DNA of 64,000 nt from Rhodopseudomonas palustris (GTDB lineage Bacteria > Pseudomonadota > Alphaproteobacteria > Rhizobiales > Xanthobacteraceae), in the NCBI GenBank assembly GCA_016215605.1, contig JACRJB010000014.1, positions 186,001 to 250,000 of the forward strand, read 5' to 3'. The position numbers were made by a program, and so were the translations under genes. The notes below the pieces were generated by a model. The model was not told where the DNA came from. It saw only the letters and a list, made by a program, of their open reading frames with translations, and did not search any database. Positions 9,023 through 24,784 of the stretch are shown in pieces (within the stretch, counting starts at the first letter, position 1; every line of letters begins with the position of its first letter).

Positions 9023-9913
9023 ATGTCCGATCTCGTCTGGAGCCGGGACGGCGCCGATTGGCCGCACCGCGAGGCCAGCCGGTTCGTCGAGGCCGGCGGT
9101 TTCCGCTGGCATGTCCAGCAGATGGGGCCGCCGGACGCGCCGGCGATTCTGCTGATCCACGGCACCGGGGCGGCGTCGCATTCCTGGCGCGGCCTCGCGC
9201 CGCTGCTGGCGCAGCATTTTCGCGTGGTTGCGCCGGATCTGCCCGGCCACGGCTTCACCCAGTCGCCGAGGGCGCACCGGCTGTCGTTGCCGGGCATGGC
9301 CGGCGATCTCGCCGCGCTGTTGCGGGTGCTCGGCGTGTCGCCGGACATCGTGGTCGGACATTCCGCGGGCGCCGCGATCGCCACGCGGATGTGCCTCGAC
9401 GGCACGATCGCGCCGCGGCTGCTGATCAGCCTCAACGGCGCATTTCTGCCCTATGGCGGGCCGGCCGCGAACTTCTTCTCGCCGCTGGCCAAGATGCTGG
9501 TGCTCAATCCGTTCGTGCCGAGCCTGTTCGCCTGGCAGGCCGGACACCGCGGTGCGGTCGAGCGGCTGATCGGCAATACCGGCTCGACCATCGATGCGGT
9601 GGGGCTGAAGCTGTACGGCAAGCTGGTCGGGAATTCCGCCCATGTCGCCGCGGCGCTGCGGATGATGGCGAACTGGGATCTTGAGCCGCTGTTGAAAGGG
9701 CTGCCCGATCTGAAGCCGCAGCTGGTGCTGGTCGCCGCCGACGGCGACCGCGCGATTCCCCCGTCGGTGGCCCGTAAGGTCCAGGAAATTCAGCCGAAAG
9801 CGGTGATCGAGCGGATTCCGCGGCTCGGCCATCTGGCCCACGAGGAGCAGCCGCAGCTGATCGCGGACCTGATCGAGCGATATTCGCGACTGACGCCCCG
9901 AAATGTCGAATAG
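9023..9913 (+). CDS. bchO: BchO, magnesium-chelatase-associated alpha/beta hydrolase
   Basis: A 296-residue alpha/beta hydrolase of the BchO type, found beside magnesium chelatase genes in purple bacteria; its precise reaction is not settled. Motifs are LLIHGTGAASHSW (oxyanion region), VGHSAGAA (Ser nucleophile), ADGDRAIP (Asp) and RLGHLAHEEQP (His). In Rhodobacter bchO follows bchID. Here it is separated from bchD by about 3.1 kb containing a PilZ gene, hemE and another hydrolase. It ends 15 bases before the first PpsR operator of crtI. Confidence 0.92.
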   Translation: MSDLVWSRDGADWPHREASRFVEAGGFRWHVQQMGPPDAPAILLIHGTGAASHSWRGLAPLLAQHFRVVAPDLPGHGFTQSPRAHRLSLPGMAGDLAALLRVLGVSPDIVVGHSAGAAIATRMCLDGTIAPRLLISLNGAFLPYGGPAANFFSPLAKMLVLNPFVPSLFAWQAGHRGAVERLIGNTGSTIDAVGLKLYGKLVGNSAHVAAALRMMANWDLEPLLKGLPDLKPQLVLVAADGDRAIPPSVARKVQEIQPKAVIERIPRLGHLAHEEQPQLIADLIERYSRLTPRNVE

Positions 9914-9927
9914 ATCAAAGACAGCGG

Positions 9928-9945
9928 TGTAAGGTTCGCATTACA
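9928..9945. promoter_or_regulatory. PpsR operator upstream of crtI (distal)
   Basis: Exact match to TGT-N12-ACA (TGTAAGGTTCGCATTACA). It is paired with a second exact site whose start is 36 bases downstream, close to an integral number of helical turns, as for cooperative PpsR/CrtJ binding. Confidence 0.85.
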
Positions 9946-9963
9946 CATTTGGACTGGTTCGGC

Positions 9964-9981
9964 TGTCAATTTTTCGTTACA
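9964..9981. promoter_or_regulatory. PpsR operator upstream of crtI (proximal)
   Basis: Exact match (TGTCAATTTTTCGTTACA), ending 9 bases before the crtI ATG at 9991. Because the operator must lie in the promoter, it argues against the in-frame upstream ATG at 9949 as the crtI start. Confidence 0.9.
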
Positions 9982-9990
9982 GTGGTGCCC

Positions 9991-11526
9991 ATGCTCGATC
10001 CCGGTCCCAAATCCGCTCCTCGTCCTTCGAATGATCGCGCACCGCATGCGGTGGTGATCGGCTCCGGCTTCGGCGGTCTGGCCGCCGCGATCCGGCTCGG
10101 CGCCAAAGGGTATCGAGTAACCGTTCTCGAGAAGCTCGATCAGCCCGGCGGCCGTGCTTACGTCCATCGCCAGGACGGCTTCACCTTCGACGCCGGCCCG
10201 ACCATTGTGACGGCGCCGTATCTGTTCGAGGAGCTGTGGAAGCTGTGCGGCAAGCGGATGTCCGACGACGTCACGCTGAAGCCGATGTCGCCGTTCTATC
10301 GCATCCGTTTCGACGACGGCACGCATTTCGACTACTCCGACGACCGCAACGCGGTGCTGGATCAGATCGCGAAATTCTGCCCCGACGACGTGCCGGCCTA
10401 CGACCGCTTCATGGCGGCGTCGCAGGCGATCTTCAAGGTCGGTTTCGAGCAGCTCGGCGATCAGCCGTTTAGCCACTTCACCGACATGCTGAAGATCGCG
10501 CCGGCGATGGTCATGCTGGAGAGCTATCGCAGCGTCTACGGCATGGTCGCCAAGCATTTCAAGGATCCGAAGCTGCGCCAGGTGTTCAGCTTCCACCCGC
10601 TGCTGATCGGCGGCAACCCGTTCATGTCGAGCTCGGTGTACTGCCTGATCACCTATCTCGAAAAGCAGTGGGGCGTGCATTCGGCGATGGGCGGCACCGG
10701 CAGCCTGGTCACCGGGCTGGCGAAGCTGATCGAAGGCCAGGGCAACGAAATCCGCTACAATCAGGACGTCCGCCAGATCGTGGTCGAGAACGGCGCCGCC
10801 TGCGGCGTCAAGCTCGCCGACGGCGAAGTGATCAAGGCCGACATCGTGGTGTCCAACGCCGATTCGGCCTCGACCTATCGCTATCTGCTGGCGCCGGAGA
10901 CGCGCAAGCGCTGGACCGACGCCAAGATCGAACGCTCGCGTTATTCCATGAGCCTGTTCGTCTGGTACTTCGGCACGAAGCGGCGCTACGACGACGTCAA
11001 GCACCACACCATCCTGCTCGGGCCGCGCTACCGCGAGCTGATCGCCGACATCTTCAGCCGCAAGATCGTCGCCGACGATTTCAGCCTGTATCTGCATCGC
11101 CCGACCGCGACAGATCCGTCGCTGGCGCCGCCCGGCTGCGATACGTTCTACGTGCTGTCGCCGGTGCCGAATCTGCTCGGCGACATCGACTGGCACAGCA
11201 AGGCCGAGACCTATCGCGCCTCGATCGCCAAGATGCTCGGCGCGACCGTGCTGCCCGATCTCGAAAACCAGGTGGTGACCTCGAAGATCACCACGCCGCT
11301 GGATTTCCAGGACCGGCTGTCGTCGTTCCGCGGCGCCGCGTTCGGGCTCGAGCCGGTGTTGTGGCAGAGCGCCTGGTTCAGGCCGCACAACAAAAGCGAA
11401 GACGTCAAGAATTTGTATCTCGTCGGTGCGGGGACACATCCCGGCGCCGGCATGCCCGGGGTGTTGTCCTCGGCGCGTGTGCTCGATTCCCTGGTCCCCG
11501 AGGCCGACAGTCTGGTGACATCATGA
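9991..11526 (+). CDS. crtI: phytoene desaturase
   Basis: FAD-dependent desaturase converting phytoene to neurosporene or lycopene in the carotenoid pathway; membrane-associated. The 511-residue protein has the N-terminal dinucleotide fold VVIGSGFGGLAAAIRL at about residue 21, the GGRAYV motif, and the C-terminal carotenoid-desaturase signature with GAGTHPGAGMPG. The ATG at 9991 was chosen because a PpsR site lies just upstream, inside the 14-codon extension that begins at 9949. It overlaps crtB by four bases (ATGA at 11523). Expression is predicted to be repressed by PpsR under oxygen. Confidence 0.97.
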   Translation: MLDPGPKSAPRPSNDRAPHAVVIGSGFGGLAAAIRLGAKGYRVTVLEKLDQPGGRAYVHRQDGFTFDAGPTIVTAPYLFEELWKLCGKRMSDDVTLKPMSPFYRIRFDDGTHFDYSDDRNAVLDQIAKFCPDDVPAYDRFMAASQAIFKVGFEQLGDQPFSHFTDMLKIAPAMVMLESYRSVYGMVAKHFKDPKLRQVFSFHPLLIGGNPFMSSSVYCLITYLEKQWGVHSAMGGTGSLVTGLAKLIEGQGNEIRYNQDVRQIVVENGAACGVKLADGEVIKADIVVSNADSASTYRYLLAPETRKRWTDAKIERSRYSMSLFVWYFGTKRRYDDVKHHTILLGPRYRELIADIFSRKIVADDFSLYLHRPTATDPSLAPPGCDTFYVLSPVPNLLGDIDWHSKAETYRASIAKMLGATVLPDLENQVVTSKITTPLDFQDRLSSFRGAAFGLEPVLWQSAWFRPHNKSEDVKNLYLVGAGTHPGAGMPGVLSSARVLDSLVPEADSLVTS

Positions 11527-12590
11527 GTGTGCAATCCGATCTGCTGGCCCAGTCCGACATGCTCGCATGTCGGGAGATGATCAAGGAAGGCTCGCGCACC
11601 TTCCACGCGGCCTCCAAGGTGCTGCCGCGGCGGATCAGCGATCCGGCGATCGCGCTCTACGCGTTCTGCCGCGTCGCCGACGACGCCGTCGATCTCGGCC
11701 TCGATCGCACCGCCGCGGTCGAAGTGCTGAAGGACCGGCTCGACCGCGCCTGCCGCGGCCTGCCACGGGCCTATCCGTCGGACCGCGCCTTCGCCGACGT
11801 GATTGCACGGTTCTCGATTCCGCCGGCGATTCCCGAGGCGCTGATCGAAGGCCTGGAATGGGATTCGCAGGGCCGCCGCTTCGAAACGCTGTCGGATCTC
11901 TACGGCTATGCGGCCCGCGTCGCCGGCACCGTCGGCGTGATGATGACGCTGGTGATGGGGCAGCGCCGGCCCGATATCGTCGCCCGCGCCTGCGATCTCG
12001 GCTGCGCCATGCAGCTCACCAACATCGCCCGCGACATCGGCGAGGACGCCCGCAACGGCCGCATCTACATGCCGCTGTCGTGGATGCGCGAGGCCGGCCT
12101 CGATCCGGAGACCTGGCTCGCCGATCCGAAATTCACGCCGGAGATCGCCGGCATCGTCAAGCGGCTGATCGACACCGCGGACGCATTGTACGATCGCGCC
12201 ACGCTCGGCATCGCCAATCTGCCGCGTTCGTGCCGCCCCGGCATCTTCGCCGCGCGCGCGCTCTACGCCGAGATCGGCCGCGAGGTCGAACGCTCCGGGC
12301 TCGATTCGGTGTCGTCGCGCGCGGTGGTGTCGACCGGCCGCAAGCTCGCCGTGCTGGCGCGGATGCTGGCGTTCCAGGAAACCGAATGGGCGCCGGCGAA
12401 GTATCTGCCGGCGAAATTCGGCGACATGGAAGAGACCCGCTTCCTGGTCGACGCCGTGATCGCCCATCCGGTCCGCGATCTGCCGTCGATCCCGCGCGTC
12501 AAGCCGATCGAGCAGAAGGTCGCCTGGCTGGTCGACCTGTTCACCCGCCTCGAACGCCGCGACCAAATGCTGCAACGTAGCCGGGTGTAG
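11523..12590 (+). CDS. crtB: phytoene synthase
   Basis: Condenses two geranylgeranyl diphosphates to phytoene, the first committed carotenoid step. The 355-residue protein has both aspartate-rich motifs of squalene/phytoene synthases: ADDAVD near residue 51, and DIGEDARNGR near residue 170. It follows crtI with an ATGA overlap, forming a crtIB operon. The long region after its stop holds only dispersed repeats, so the operon ends here. Confidence 0.97.
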   Translation: MSVQSDLLAQSDMLACREMIKEGSRTFHAASKVLPRRISDPAIALYAFCRVADDAVDLGLDRTAAVEVLKDRLDRACRGLPRAYPSDRAFADVIARFSIPPAIPEALIEGLEWDSQGRRFETLSDLYGYAARVAGTVGVMMTLVMGQRRPDIVARACDLGCAMQLTNIARDIGEDARNGRIYMPLSWMREAGLDPETWLADPKFTPEIAGIVKRLIDTADALYDRATLGIANLPRSCRPGIFAARALYAEIGREVERSGLDSVSSRAVVSTGRKLAVLARMLAFQETEWAPAKYLPAKFGDMEETRFLVDAVIAHPVRDLPSIPRVKPIEQKVAWLVDLFTRLERRDQMLQRSRV

Positions 12591-12613: not shown

Positions 12614-12710
12614 TCCGTCATGCCCGGGCGTCGTCCCGGGCATCCACGACCAGCGCCCGCGCCGTGCCCGGCCCCGTGGATGGCCGGGACGAAGCCCGGC
12701 CATGACGCCG
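12614..12710. repeat. palindromic intergenic repeat, two hairpins
   Basis: Two related palindromes lie head to tail: ATGCCCGGG/CCCGGGCAT at 12620-12643 and ATGGCCGGG/CCCGGCCAT at 12680-12703. Both are flanked by CGTCATG-type sequence in mirrored orientation. A third copy lies at 14275-14308. Together they look like a REP-type family of small repeats. The first hairpin, starting 30 bases after the crtB stop, may also act in 3' end formation. Confidence 0.75.
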
Positions 12711-12997: not shown

Positions 12998-13900
12998 ATG
13001 ACGATCGACACCGACCTCGACACTGTCACCACCAGCCGCGTCGAAGCGCAGCGGACGCAGGCGCGCGCCTGGTTCGAGGGCCTGCGCGATCGGATCTGCG
13101 CCGAGATCGAGACGTTGGAACGCGAGGCGCCGGCCGAGCTGTTTCCCGGCACGCCGGCGACGTTCACCTACAAGCCGTGGCAGCGCAAGACGGGCGCCGG
13201 CGGCGGTGTCGGCGGCTTTCTGTCGAACGGCCGGCTGTTCGAAAAGATCGGCATTCACACCTCGTCGGCCAACGGCCGGCTGACGCCGGAGATGGCGAAG
13301 AATCTTCCCGGCGACGGCGTCACGCTCGACTACGTCTCGACCAGCATCAGCCTGATCATGCATCCGCGCAGCCCGCGGGTGCCGACCGTGCACATGAACA
13401 CGCGCTTTCTGTCGACCTCGCAGGGCTGGTTCGGCGGCGGCGCGGATCTGACGCCGATGCTGCCGGAGCAGCGCAGCCAGGACGCCGAGGACGCGGTGAT
13501 CTTTCACGCCGCAATGAAAGCGGCCTGCGACGCGCACGACCCGAGCTACTACGCCAAGTTCAAGCCCTGGGCCGACACCTATTTCTTCCTGCCGCATCGC
13601 GGCACCGCGCGCGGCGTCGGTGGCATCTTCTACGATCACCTCAACAGCGGCGATTTCGACCGCGACTTCGCCTTCACCCGCGACGTCGGCGCAGCATTGC
13701 TCGACATCTATCCGAAGATCGTCCGCAAGCGCATGATCGAGCCGTGGACCGAGCAAGAGCGCGCGCAGCAGCTCGCCTGCCGCGGACTCTATGTCGAGTT
13801 CAACCTCTTGTACGACAAGGGCACGATGTTCGGCCTGCAGACCGGCGGCAACACCGAAACCATCATGAGCTCGATGCCGCCGCTGGTCAGCTGGAGCTGA
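12998..13900 (+). CDS. hemF: oxygen-dependent coproporphyrinogen III oxidase
   Basis: Oxidatively decarboxylates coproporphyrinogen III to protoporphyrinogen IX using O2, in the cytoplasm. The 300-residue sequence shows the HemF hallmarks: WFGGGADLTP near residue 145, FFLPHRGTARGVGGIFYDHL near residue 195, and the C-terminal YVEFNLLYDKGTMFGLQTGGN. The length is normal for the family. The ATG at 12998 begins MTIDTDL. It stands alone between repeat-rich DNA and a hairpin terminator at 13916. Confidence 0.97.
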   Translation: MTIDTDLDTVTTSRVEAQRTQARAWFEGLRDRICAEIETLEREAPAELFPGTPATFTYKPWQRKTGAGGGVGGFLSNGRLFEKIGIHTSSANGRLTPEMAKNLPGDGVTLDYVSTSISLIMHPRSPRVPTVHMNTRFLSTSQGWFGGGADLTPMLPEQRSQDAEDAVIFHAAMKAACDAHDPSYYAKFKPWADTYFFLPHRGTARGVGGIFYDHLNSGDFDRDFAFTRDVGAALLDIYPKIVRKRMIEPWTEQERAQQLACRGLYVEFNLLYDKGTMFGLQTGGNTETIMSSMPPLVSWS

Positions 13901-13987: not shown

Positions 13988-14122
13988 GTGGAGGAGTATT
14001 ACGGACTGATCGAACTGGTGCTGGTGTTCGCCTGTCTGGCGATCGGCTGGTTCGTGCTCGAACGCCAGGGCAAACGCCTCGACCGCGCCCGCGCCGAACG
14101 CGACAAGGAGCAGTCCCCATGA
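13988..14122 (+). CDS. small single-span membrane protein, first of a paralogous pair
   Basis: A 44-residue protein from GTG at 13988, which has GGGAGA about 7 bases upstream. An in-frame ATG at 13928 lies within the hemF terminator and is unlikely. It has one hydrophobic helix (LIELVLVFACLAIGWFVL) followed by a basic and acidic amphipathic tail beginning ERQGKRLDR. The next gene encodes a protein of the same plan with the near-identical stretch LEWQGKRLDR, and the two overlap at ATGA. I do not recognise the family. The pair may insert as a heteromer in the inner membrane. Confidence 0.65.
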   Translation: MEEYYGLIELVLVFACLAIGWFVLERQGKRLDRARAERDKEQSP

Positions 14123-14271
14123 CCAGCGACAGCGCCTTCAACTACTTCGAAATCCTGATGCTCGGAATGTTCGCCGCGAGCTGGCTGGTGCTGGAATGGC
14201 AAGGCAAGCGGCTGGACCGCAAGCGGGAAGCGGAGAAGGCGTCGAACACGGCCCACCCAGACAAGCACTGA
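14119..14271 (+). CDS. small single-span membrane protein, second of a paralogous pair
   Basis: A 50-residue protein beginning MTSDSAFNYFEIL at 14119 and ending with TGA at 14269-14271. The hydrophobic segment LMLGMFAASWLVL is followed by EWQGKRLDRKREAEK, which mirrors the previous gene product. The ATG overlaps the upstream stop (ATGA), so the two are translationally coupled. Function is unknown. It lies between hemF and the end of crtC, and a copy of the palindromic repeat follows 3 bases after its stop. Confidence 0.65.
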   Translation: MTSDSAFNYFEILMLGMFAASWLVLEWQGKRLDRKREAEKASNTAHPDKH

Positions 14272-14274
14272 ATC

Positions 14275-14308
14275 CGTCATGGCCGGGCTTCGTCCCGGCC
14301 ATCCACGA
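14275..14308. repeat. palindromic intergenic repeat, third copy
   Basis: CGTCATGGCCGGG and its partner CCCGGCCATCCACGA repeat the element at 12614-12710. It sits between the small-protein pair and the crtC stop, where the hairpin could serve both convergent units as a terminator. Confidence 0.7.
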
Positions 14309-14322
14309 AAACGCGCCGCCCC

Positions 14323-15276
14323 TCACTTCCGCCGCGGCATCCGGAACGGAAGCATCGCCTGCACCACCGGCATGTTGAAGCGGTCGAGGGACAGGCTTTC
14401 GTGCATCAGCGTCACCGGTTCGCCGAGCAGCGTGGTGGCGATCATCGAGCGGGCGTAGAACGGGGTATCTTCGAGGGTGCGGATCACCCTGGCGTCCGCT
14501 TCGCTGCGGGCGCTGCGGCTGACTTTCCAGCCGGTGCGGGCGAGCGGCAAGAGCGGCGGCGGGGTGAAGCGCTCCATGTTGCCCTGGGCATCGAACGTCA
14601 TCGCCAGGTCGACGCGGCTGCCGTCGCGGCGCTCGGCTTCGTACAGGATCGCGGTCTTGTCGCGCAGTGCGCCGCGCGCCCATTCCCAATGTCGGAAGCC
14701 CGTCTCGATCGGCGCATCGCCGGCATTGGTGTCGAGATAGGCTTCGCCCGTCCACGACAGGTTCGGCTGATCCAGCGTCACCTCGATCCGCGAGCGCGGC
14801 GCGATCGGCCACCAGCGGTGATTGCCGTCTTCGTTGAGCACGAAGCAGGTCTTGGTCAGCGCCTGCGGGACGACGCGGACGCGGCCCCTGATCCGGCCCG
14901 GAATCGGTGCGCTCATCTCGTTGATGTTGATGGTCAGCGCCTTGCCGTCCCAGCCGAGGTCGCTCGGCCCGATCAGGAACGAATGCAGGTTGCGCGCGAC
15001 CTTGCCGCGCGCGCGCTCGGTCATGGTCCAGCGCTTGCCGGCGCTGTGATACAGCGCCACGTTGAGCGCGCAATGATCGAGCGGGTCGGCGGCGGCGCCG
15101 CGCCGCGCGAATTTGTAGTAGGGCGAGAACACGCTGCCGATGAAGGCGATGATGGTCAGGCCTTCGCGGCCGTCGTCGCTGATCGCGTCGACATACCACC
15201 AGGCGTAGCCGTTGGGCGGAACGTCGAGGTTGAATCCGGCGCGGCGTTCGTCGGTCTCGTTGGGCCAGGCAATCAT
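14323..15276 (-). CDS. crtC: carotenoid 1,2-hydratase (hydroxyneurosporene synthase)
   Basis: Adds water to the end double bond of neurosporene or lycopene in spirilloxanthin synthesis. The 317-residue protein begins MIAWPNETDERRAGF and has the family's Trp- and Tyr-rich blocks (NGYAWWYVDAISDD, FIGSVFSPYY). The conserved C-terminal YARSMI and ESLSLDRF segments are also present. It follows crtD with a 43-base gap on the minus strand, forming a crtDC operon under the PpsR sites near 16930. Confidence 0.95.
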   Translation of the reverse strand: MIAWPNETDERRAGFNLDVPPNGYAWWYVDAISDDGREGLTIIAFIGSVFSPYYKFARRGAAADPLDHCALNVALYHSAGKRWTMTERARGKVARNLHSFLIGPSDLGWDGKALTININEMSAPIPGRIRGRVRVVPQALTKTCFVLNEDGNHRWWPIAPRSRIEVTLDQPNLSWTGEAYLDTNAGDAPIETGFRHWEWARGALRDKTAILYEAERRDGSRVDLAMTFDAQGNMERFTPPPLLPLARTGWKVSRSARSEADARVIRTLEDTPFYARSMIATTLLGEPVTLMHESLSLDRFNMPVVQAMLPFRMPRRK

Positions 15277-24586: not shown

Positions 24587-24784
24587 ATGAGTGACGGTTC
24601 CATCTCGGGACTTTCCGAAGCGGAAGCCAAGGAATTCCACTCGATCTTCGTGACGAGCTTCTTCCTCTTCATCGTGGTTGCTGTTGTTGCTCACATCCTC
24701 GCTTGGATGTGGCGTCCGTGGCTGCCCAAGGCAACTGGCTACGCGATGGACAGCGTTCATCAACTGACTTCGTATCTGTGCTAA
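24587..24784 (+). CDS. pufB: light-harvesting 1 beta polypeptide
   Basis: A 65-residue LH1 beta subunit beginning [19 protein letters not shown]. One transmembrane helix contains the bacteriochlorophyll-ligating His in [13 protein letters not shown]. The start is set by a very strong ribosome-binding site AGGAGGTG at 24573-24580; an in-frame GTG at 24578 falls inside it. It forms the LH1 ring around the reaction centre with PufA and is first of pufBALM. Confidence 0.97.

Follow-up and report, generated by a model that had tools for sequence, protein, structure and literature searches.

A tandem pair of small membrane proteins in a Rhodopseudomonas photosynthesis gene cluster points to an unnamed single-span family linked to phototrophy

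Two very small overlapping genes, ORFs A and B, from Rhodopseudomonas palustris are a duplicated version of a single-span protein family that had no name before and whose members have about 45-65 residues, and the tie of this family to phototrophy is nearly certain. They lie in the window (the whole stretch of DNA that was analysed, 64,000 nucleotides). The explanation that we favour, with somewhat less than even confidence when taken as a whole, is that the family is dedicated to photosynthesis, sits in the inner membrane, serves assembly or pigment supply, and exists as a pair in Rhodopseudomonas. The region around A and B is a photosynthesis gene cluster with the following features.

9023-9913, + strand: bchO, from a family search; in the sphingomonad-like family described below, bchO is likewise the gene next to the family member on its upstream side
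9928-9945 and 9964-9981, + strand: two PpsR-like TGT-N12-ACA boxes in front of crtI
9949-11526, + strand: crtI, phytoene desaturase; open frame counted from TTG, with the actual start perhaps more internal
11523-12590, + strand: crtB, phytoene synthase, from Pfam and NCBIfam searches
12998-13900, + strand: hemF, oxygen-dependent coproporphyrinogen oxidase, over the Pfam and NCBIfam cut-offs
13988-14122, + strand: ORF A, 44-residue single-span protein with a GTG start, translation VEEYYGLIELVLVFACLAIGWFVLERQGKRLDRARAERDKEQSP
14119-14122, + strand: the sequence ATGA, shared by the stop of A and the start of B
14119-14271, + strand: ORF B, 50-residue single-span protein, paralogue of A, translation MTSDSAFNYFEILMLGMFAASWLVLEWQGKRLDRKREAEKASNTAHPDKH
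14323-15276, - strand: crtC, carotenoid 1,2-hydratase, convergent with A and B; best NCBIfam match 282 bits against a cut-off of 400

ORF A begins 87 nt after the end of hemF, its upstream neighbour. A and B are identical at 14 of 25 positions in a local alignment (BLASTP E 2e-9) and both contain QGKRLDR; the translations and this alignment confirm the original prediction of tiny paralogues with a shared QGKRLDR tail and an ATGA overlap. From the overlap we infer that translation of A and B is coupled. An AlphaFold2 model of B predicts a single helix over residues 3-45 (mean pLDDT 78). Both ORFs are under purifying selection: pooled pairwise dN/dS was 0.30 for A (codons 2-36) and 0.115 for B (codons 2-38) across 15 of the 16 same-genus genomes, with L029 omitted for its unclear start and with pairs that are not independent of one another. 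A synonymous excess was present in the reading frame only, with none in the two other frames of A and B. The dN/dS values support the view that these are real genes for small single-span proteins.

The pair is a constant feature of the genus. All 16 same-genus genomes in the sample gave two matches, both ORFs were seen in the 15 loci other than that of the window, and nine named Rhodopseudomonas records hold relatives of B, with A also found in eight; conservation of the pair thus held up. In the genus, window included (n=16), A and B overlap by 4 nt in 13 cases and by 8 nt in one, and are about 138 nt apart in the other two. Among the 11 genomes from other genera of the window's taxonomic family that had a strong match, three carry a pair (spaced by a 4-nt overlap, a 22-nt gap and a 39-nt gap) and eight a single copy, and single copies were also seen elsewhere in the class. 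In a phylogenetic tree the B copies form one clade (support 99/97); A is not resolved as one, in a tree with few columns and many unresolved forks. The tandem pair is a lineage-specific duplication in Rhodopseudomonas and close kin. The proposal that the pair is duplicated and kept for a joint function stands as regards paralogy and fails as a general rule, given the single-copy genomes (8/11) in other genera; a joint function fits only the duplicated lineage.

The family has a simple and consistent anatomy. In 47 aligned members, one column at the start of the span is always acidic (Glu in 42, Asp in five), and the end of the span has Trp or Tyr in 42/47 and Gln or Glu in 46/47. Lys and Arg are richer on the C-terminal side than before the span in every one of the 47, which predicts that the N-terminus is out and the C-terminus in. 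Only one of the 47 has a His in the span. A and B both align to the family, with the acidic membrane entry, the Q/E exit, the basic tail and the company of photosynthesis genes; the aromatic residue before the exit Glu is replaced in both (LER, LEW), and A has one additional residue in the membrane span. Searches of Pfam, NCBIfam, PHROGs and the PDB with single sequences and with profiles gave no credible match to the family, the best PDB match (E 0.086) being to a cation-transporting ATPase. Scattered matches of one or two members were set aside as not common to the family: an unnamed PHROG (2.4e-4), NCBIfam SepX/GlpR (0.0015), PHROG 5552 'membrane protein' (0.0025) and Pfam MFAP1 (0.0042).

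The tie to phototrophy is clearest among the 296 genomes of the window's taxonomic family. Family profiles were extended stepwise (A1, A2, A4, A5). A first search with B matched 27 of the 296 genomes, including a chance match in G062, a genome without pufM (L042, E 0.009), that does not belong to the family. Strong matches to A1 (E <= 2.7e-11) were found in 27 of 36 pufM-positive genomes versus none of 260 pufM-negative genomes (Fisher p 6.6e-31), with the rows of A1 drawn mostly from these same genomes and G143 new to it. At a loose limit of 0.1, A1 gave weak matches in 58 more genomes; inspection covered a minority of these, among them the best (L070 in G257, 6e-5), which is no relative. Where other genera have a single-copy relative, it is placed with hemF or crtB on one side and crtC on the other. 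The nine of 36 pufM-positive genomes that gave no match are five of genus g10, three of g44, and G294. The three g44 genomes also gave no crtC match, and in G294 crtB and crtC abut.

Other small single-span ORFs occur in this neighbourhood. One that differs from the family (e.g., MTWETFIPSLALMTLGAFFAFAVMQFVAFSRRRSNREAIKRSF) is near crtC in three of the five g10 loci (L076-L078), and in G643, a genome from elsewhere in the class, another (L121, 1290-1460) lies between the family member and crtC. We rejected these ORFs as members, at E values of 0.03-4 with the first profile and at least 0.4 with the last.

Elsewhere in the class, members were again found in pufM-positive genomes. A search of 385 genomes with A1 (E <= 0.001) matched, beyond the window's own genome, only G460 (6.7e-4) and G542 (6e-4); both proved, when pufM status was looked up afterwards, to be among the 25 pufM-positive genomes of the class. 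The pufM-negative genomes of the class were searched with A1 alone. Profile A2 (which includes G460 and G542), together with a reading of the sequence beside crtC, gave a member for 18 of the remaining 24 pufM-positive genomes. In 14 of these 18 it is beside crtC (G307, G360, G386, G418, G423, G430, G440, G443, G460, G470, G566, G620, G643 and G674), with one small ORF intervening in G643; those of G386, G440 and G620 were identified from the slot sequence and have no score of their own. The member of G578 directly follows crtB, about 4.4 kb from crtC, and reached 4.5e-10 when 3,699 frames were scanned. The member in G323 directly follows a TspO-like ORF (identified by eye) and is 359 kb from crtC, and those of G542 and G622 are away from any recognised photosynthesis gene. 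Several slot matches are weak alone (E 1e-4 to 0.2, with 0.2 for G643), and with A2 genomes that lack a member (G044, G629) also produced matches away from the slot, at E values as low as 0.003, so it is the shared slot and not the score that carries the weak cases. Within the taxonomic family of G542 (17 genomes), four matched: three known pufM-positive genomes and G687, with a locus that was read by eye as crtB-tspO-member-crtC. The pufM test covered four of these 17 genomes, G687 not among them.

A member directly after a TspO-like ORF, judged by eye, was seen in G323 (L085/L129), G443 (L086/L130) and G687 (L139), which suggests that the two genes can form a two-gene unit.

The family is not universal among phototrophs. 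No member was found in six of the 25 pufM-positive genomes of the class (G331, which is fragmented, G391, G400, G547, G629, and G636, with no crtC match). Likewise, seven plasmid regions (five from Rhodobacterales, one from Chromatiales and one from Methylobacterium) had no member in the stretch read; 8 of the 11 plasmid records with crtC were read.

A further set of members outside the window's taxonomic family came from the family of G440, which we take for Sphingomonadaceae because gene order matches, and the sequence is similar, in a named Novosphingobium record. In this record (WP_062786511.1, a hypothetical protein of Novosphingobium capsulatum), the gene has a 4-nt overlap with bchO and faces crtC. 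Profile A5 matched 63 of 267 genomes of G440's family (E <= 0.01). The best 30 of the 65 A5 matches are all 3' of bchO (30/30) and 28 of the 30 are also beside crtC; the profile itself drew rows from three of these genomes, and L177 holds a stop. Fifty of the 65 matches were read, with the phototrophy context judged by neighbouring genes and not by pufM. Among the 20 weaker matches, five are in the crtC slot (some with an internal stop), one is about 1.4 kb from crtC, five are the second gene 3' of pufC, and two (L190 and L191) are family-like with no photosynthesis gene in the fetched stretch. The remaining seven are not family: L189, L192, L195, L196 and L197 were judged to fall outside it, and L193 and L194 are CcmD. 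The pufC-linked copies (five genomes) belong to one genus and show that a displaced member can remain in the company of photosynthesis genes.

Two other genes were noticed near the displaced copies. A membrane-like protein of about 245 residues is encoded between pufC and the member in five genomes (L178, 805-1539; L179; L180; L184; L188), and the L178 protein gave no match in Pfam (E <= 0.01) or NCBIfam (E <= 1e-5). A Tricorn-like S41 protease adjoins the displaced member in L183 (1665-3200) and L191 (2-1495).

The position of the family gene indicates what it is tied to. Its usual slot is the 3' end of a bchIDO-crtIB(-hemF/tspO) run, facing crtC, which is the most constant neighbour of the slot. 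The gene ends the run whatever intervenes (hemF, tspO or nothing) and stays with bchO where crtIB is absent from the slot. Staying with bchO when crtIB is off-slot points to a tie to phototrophy or bacteriochlorophyll and not to CrtB or HemF. The original prediction had also drawn on the setting of the pair among hem and crt genes; the tie to phototrophy survives, and the hem neighbour is incidental, as many members have no hemF in their slot.

The boxes in front of crtI might act on the genes from crtI through A and B. TGT-N12-ACA, which we take to be a PpsR-like consensus, occurs 14 times in the window against 4.2 expected, and control of the run by these two boxes is possible. A scan for promoters and terminators found one terminator-like site, the same number as in shuffled sequences. 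Separately, a repeated palindromic element, which may be REP-like, lies between crtB and hemF (12616-12707, with 33-nt arms that are 91% complementary); a copy of one arm is also present between ORF B and crtC (14275-14307), where it folds into a hairpin (-19.7 kcal/mol, z -1.6).

We tentatively propose that the family protein is a membrane assembly or pigment-supply factor. Its N-terminus would be periplasmic, and the helix would span the membrane with the invariant Glu/Asp near the outer end and continue as a charged helix into the cytoplasm. The helix could bind a membrane partner in bacteriochlorophyll delivery or in the build-up of RC-LH1, and the tail could recruit a soluble partner. In Rhodopseudomonas, the overlapping genes might yield two divergent helices in matched amounts, and these would act together; such an A/B heteromer is possible, if on the unlikely side. 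A bolder version is quite improbable: the family would be a missing general component of photosystem biogenesis in purple bacteria, duplicated to a heteromeric pair in Rhodopseudomonas. It would be a pigment-handling helix that holds bacteriochlorophyll, or one of its precursors, at the invariant Glu/Asp of the membrane edge while the pigment passes from the Mg branch to the reaction centre and LH1.

The slot itself also lends some weight to a different role, that of a membrane anchor or regulator of enzymes of the Mg branch or of carotenoid synthesis, which would hold BchD, BchI, BchO, CrtB or CrtC at the membrane. The location at the end of bchIDO(-crtIB), the 4-nt overlap with bchO in Novosphingobium and crtC as the usual neighbour speak for such an anchor. 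However, the slot may or may not contain crtIB, hemF and tspO while the gene stays, the G323 copy is far from crtC, and the pufC-linked copies are without bchO or crtC in the stretches seen. We regard an enzyme anchor as unlikely, if still a serious candidate.

Could the protein instead be part of the photosystem? The original prediction suggested that the pair may tune a pigment-protein complex, and this part gained no support: there was no credible match to the chains of RC-LH1 6z5r/6z5s or to other PDB chains. The PufM of the window is closest to that of the solved complex 6z5r/6z5s, the RC-LH1 of Rhodopseudomonas palustris (PMC7806223). That no member is among the solved RC-LH1 chains argues against a stable subunit, and thereby favours assembly or pigment supply, and the family protein is probably not a stable structural subunit of RC-LH1. 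Absence from the PDB would also be expected of a weakly bound subunit lost in purification, and it is unlikely, slightly more so than an enzyme anchor, that the protein belongs to RC-LH1 (or LH2) as a labile or substoichiometric subunit that binds at the ring, like PufX or protein-W. The single span, the company of photosynthesis genes and the copies that are second after pufC in five genomes would agree with this, as would the finding, in the consulted part of PMC7806223, that protein-W is present in only about 1-15% of Rps. palustris core complexes, a share that depends on light. Against it, no PDB chain matched although RC-LH1 complexes of a close organism and of other purple bacteria were among those searched, and the near absence of His from the span means that the usual bacteriochlorophyll ligand is missing. 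In addition, LH2-gamma of Rps. palustris is a different protein with serine-bearing repeats (excerpts of PMC9618040).

It is very improbable that the family is distantly derived from small haem-handling helices of the CcmD type and now serves a tetrapyrrole or cytochrome step in phototrophs. CcmD is like the family in having one span, a basic tail and weak profile similarity, and two bona fide CcmD proteins (L193 and L194) were weakly matched by the profile. In hhalign both scored 88% versus 0-38% for ten shuffles of one of them, but both were picked by the profile, which biases the comparison, and another small span protein from the slot scored 82%. Pfam CcmD (PF04995) matches L193 and L194 and not the members (0/32 at E up to 1; 0/26 at E up to 0.05), and no CcmD chain was matched in the PDB. 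Members are not in ccm operons, most loci being beside bchO, crtB, hemF, crtC or pufC, and the aligned stretch of the L194 CcmD excludes the invariant acidic residue of the family. That A and B are non-coding or decaying by-products of an intergenic region, as very short length, the GTG start of A and the lack of a curated family might suggest, is scarcely credible given their dN/dS, the other frames without synonymous excess and the same slot kept across taxonomic families of the class.

The photosynthesis gene cluster is among the most-studied gene clusters. The family is probably an overlooked part of how its hosts assemble or operate photosynthesis. Our literature searches, with subscription papers largely outside their reach, found no description of the family. 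The gene is not in the core photosynthesis-gene lists in the portions of PMC3176799 and PMC4919336 at hand; the maps there include unlabelled grey hypothetical arrows that may include it. For Erythrobacter, the same portion of PMC4919336 gives bchIDO-crtCDF with no named gene between. Dinoroseobacter has a hypothetical gene between tspO and crtC that is labelled as not specific to the cluster (PMC6052148, in part), and additional hypothetical genes are mentioned for Rhodoplanes (PMC10569730, in part). The available sections of PMC10569730, PMC4036050, PMC5989583 and PMC3338782 contain nothing on the family. How bacteriochlorophyll is delivered and RC-LH1 is assembled is an open question, and a family kept in many alphaproteobacterial phototrophs and not found in 260 pufM-negative relatives is a candidate for a part in it. 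The invariant acidic residue offers a single-residue test.

Several known systems resemble this family in part. Like the family protein, PufX and protein-W (PufW), which open the RC-LH1 ring, are small membrane proteins; they are associated with purple-bacterial core complexes, and PufX has one span (PMC7806223, in part). In contrast, they have no sequence match to the family, whose gene sits at the bchIDO-crt slot, and protein-W is a 10.5-kDa protein with three predicted spans (same source). LH2-gamma is also small, is found in Rhodopseudomonas and was overlooked before a structure. According to excerpts of PMC9618040, it is an extended ribbon of six repeats with no helix and is reported from Rhodopseudomonas only; we rejected it as the identity of A or B, which are without repeats of the EYKGHSGHPLIKQEG kind. 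Nor does the family resemble the LH alpha and beta polypeptides, for which a His in the span was the test (1/47 members), and the LH-like ORFs of the window at 24587 and 24800, identified by eye, scored 2% and 9% in hhalign against the family profile. LH1-gamma of Blastochloris is a small single-helix photosystem polypeptide; the family, in contrast, had no sequence match in PDB searches.

If the family acts in assembly or pigment supply, its closest functional parallels may be outside the purple bacteria. PsbN is a small single-span assembly factor of photosystem II that is encoded among photosystem genes; it is required for assembly and is not a subunit. The family likewise has a single span and is encoded among photosystem genes, a likeness of working and not a claim of homology, although PsbN serves another photosystem in other organisms. 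In cyanobacteria, Hlip proteins serve chlorophyll synthase. If the family helix does handle pigment, Hlip proteins would be its functional counterpart.
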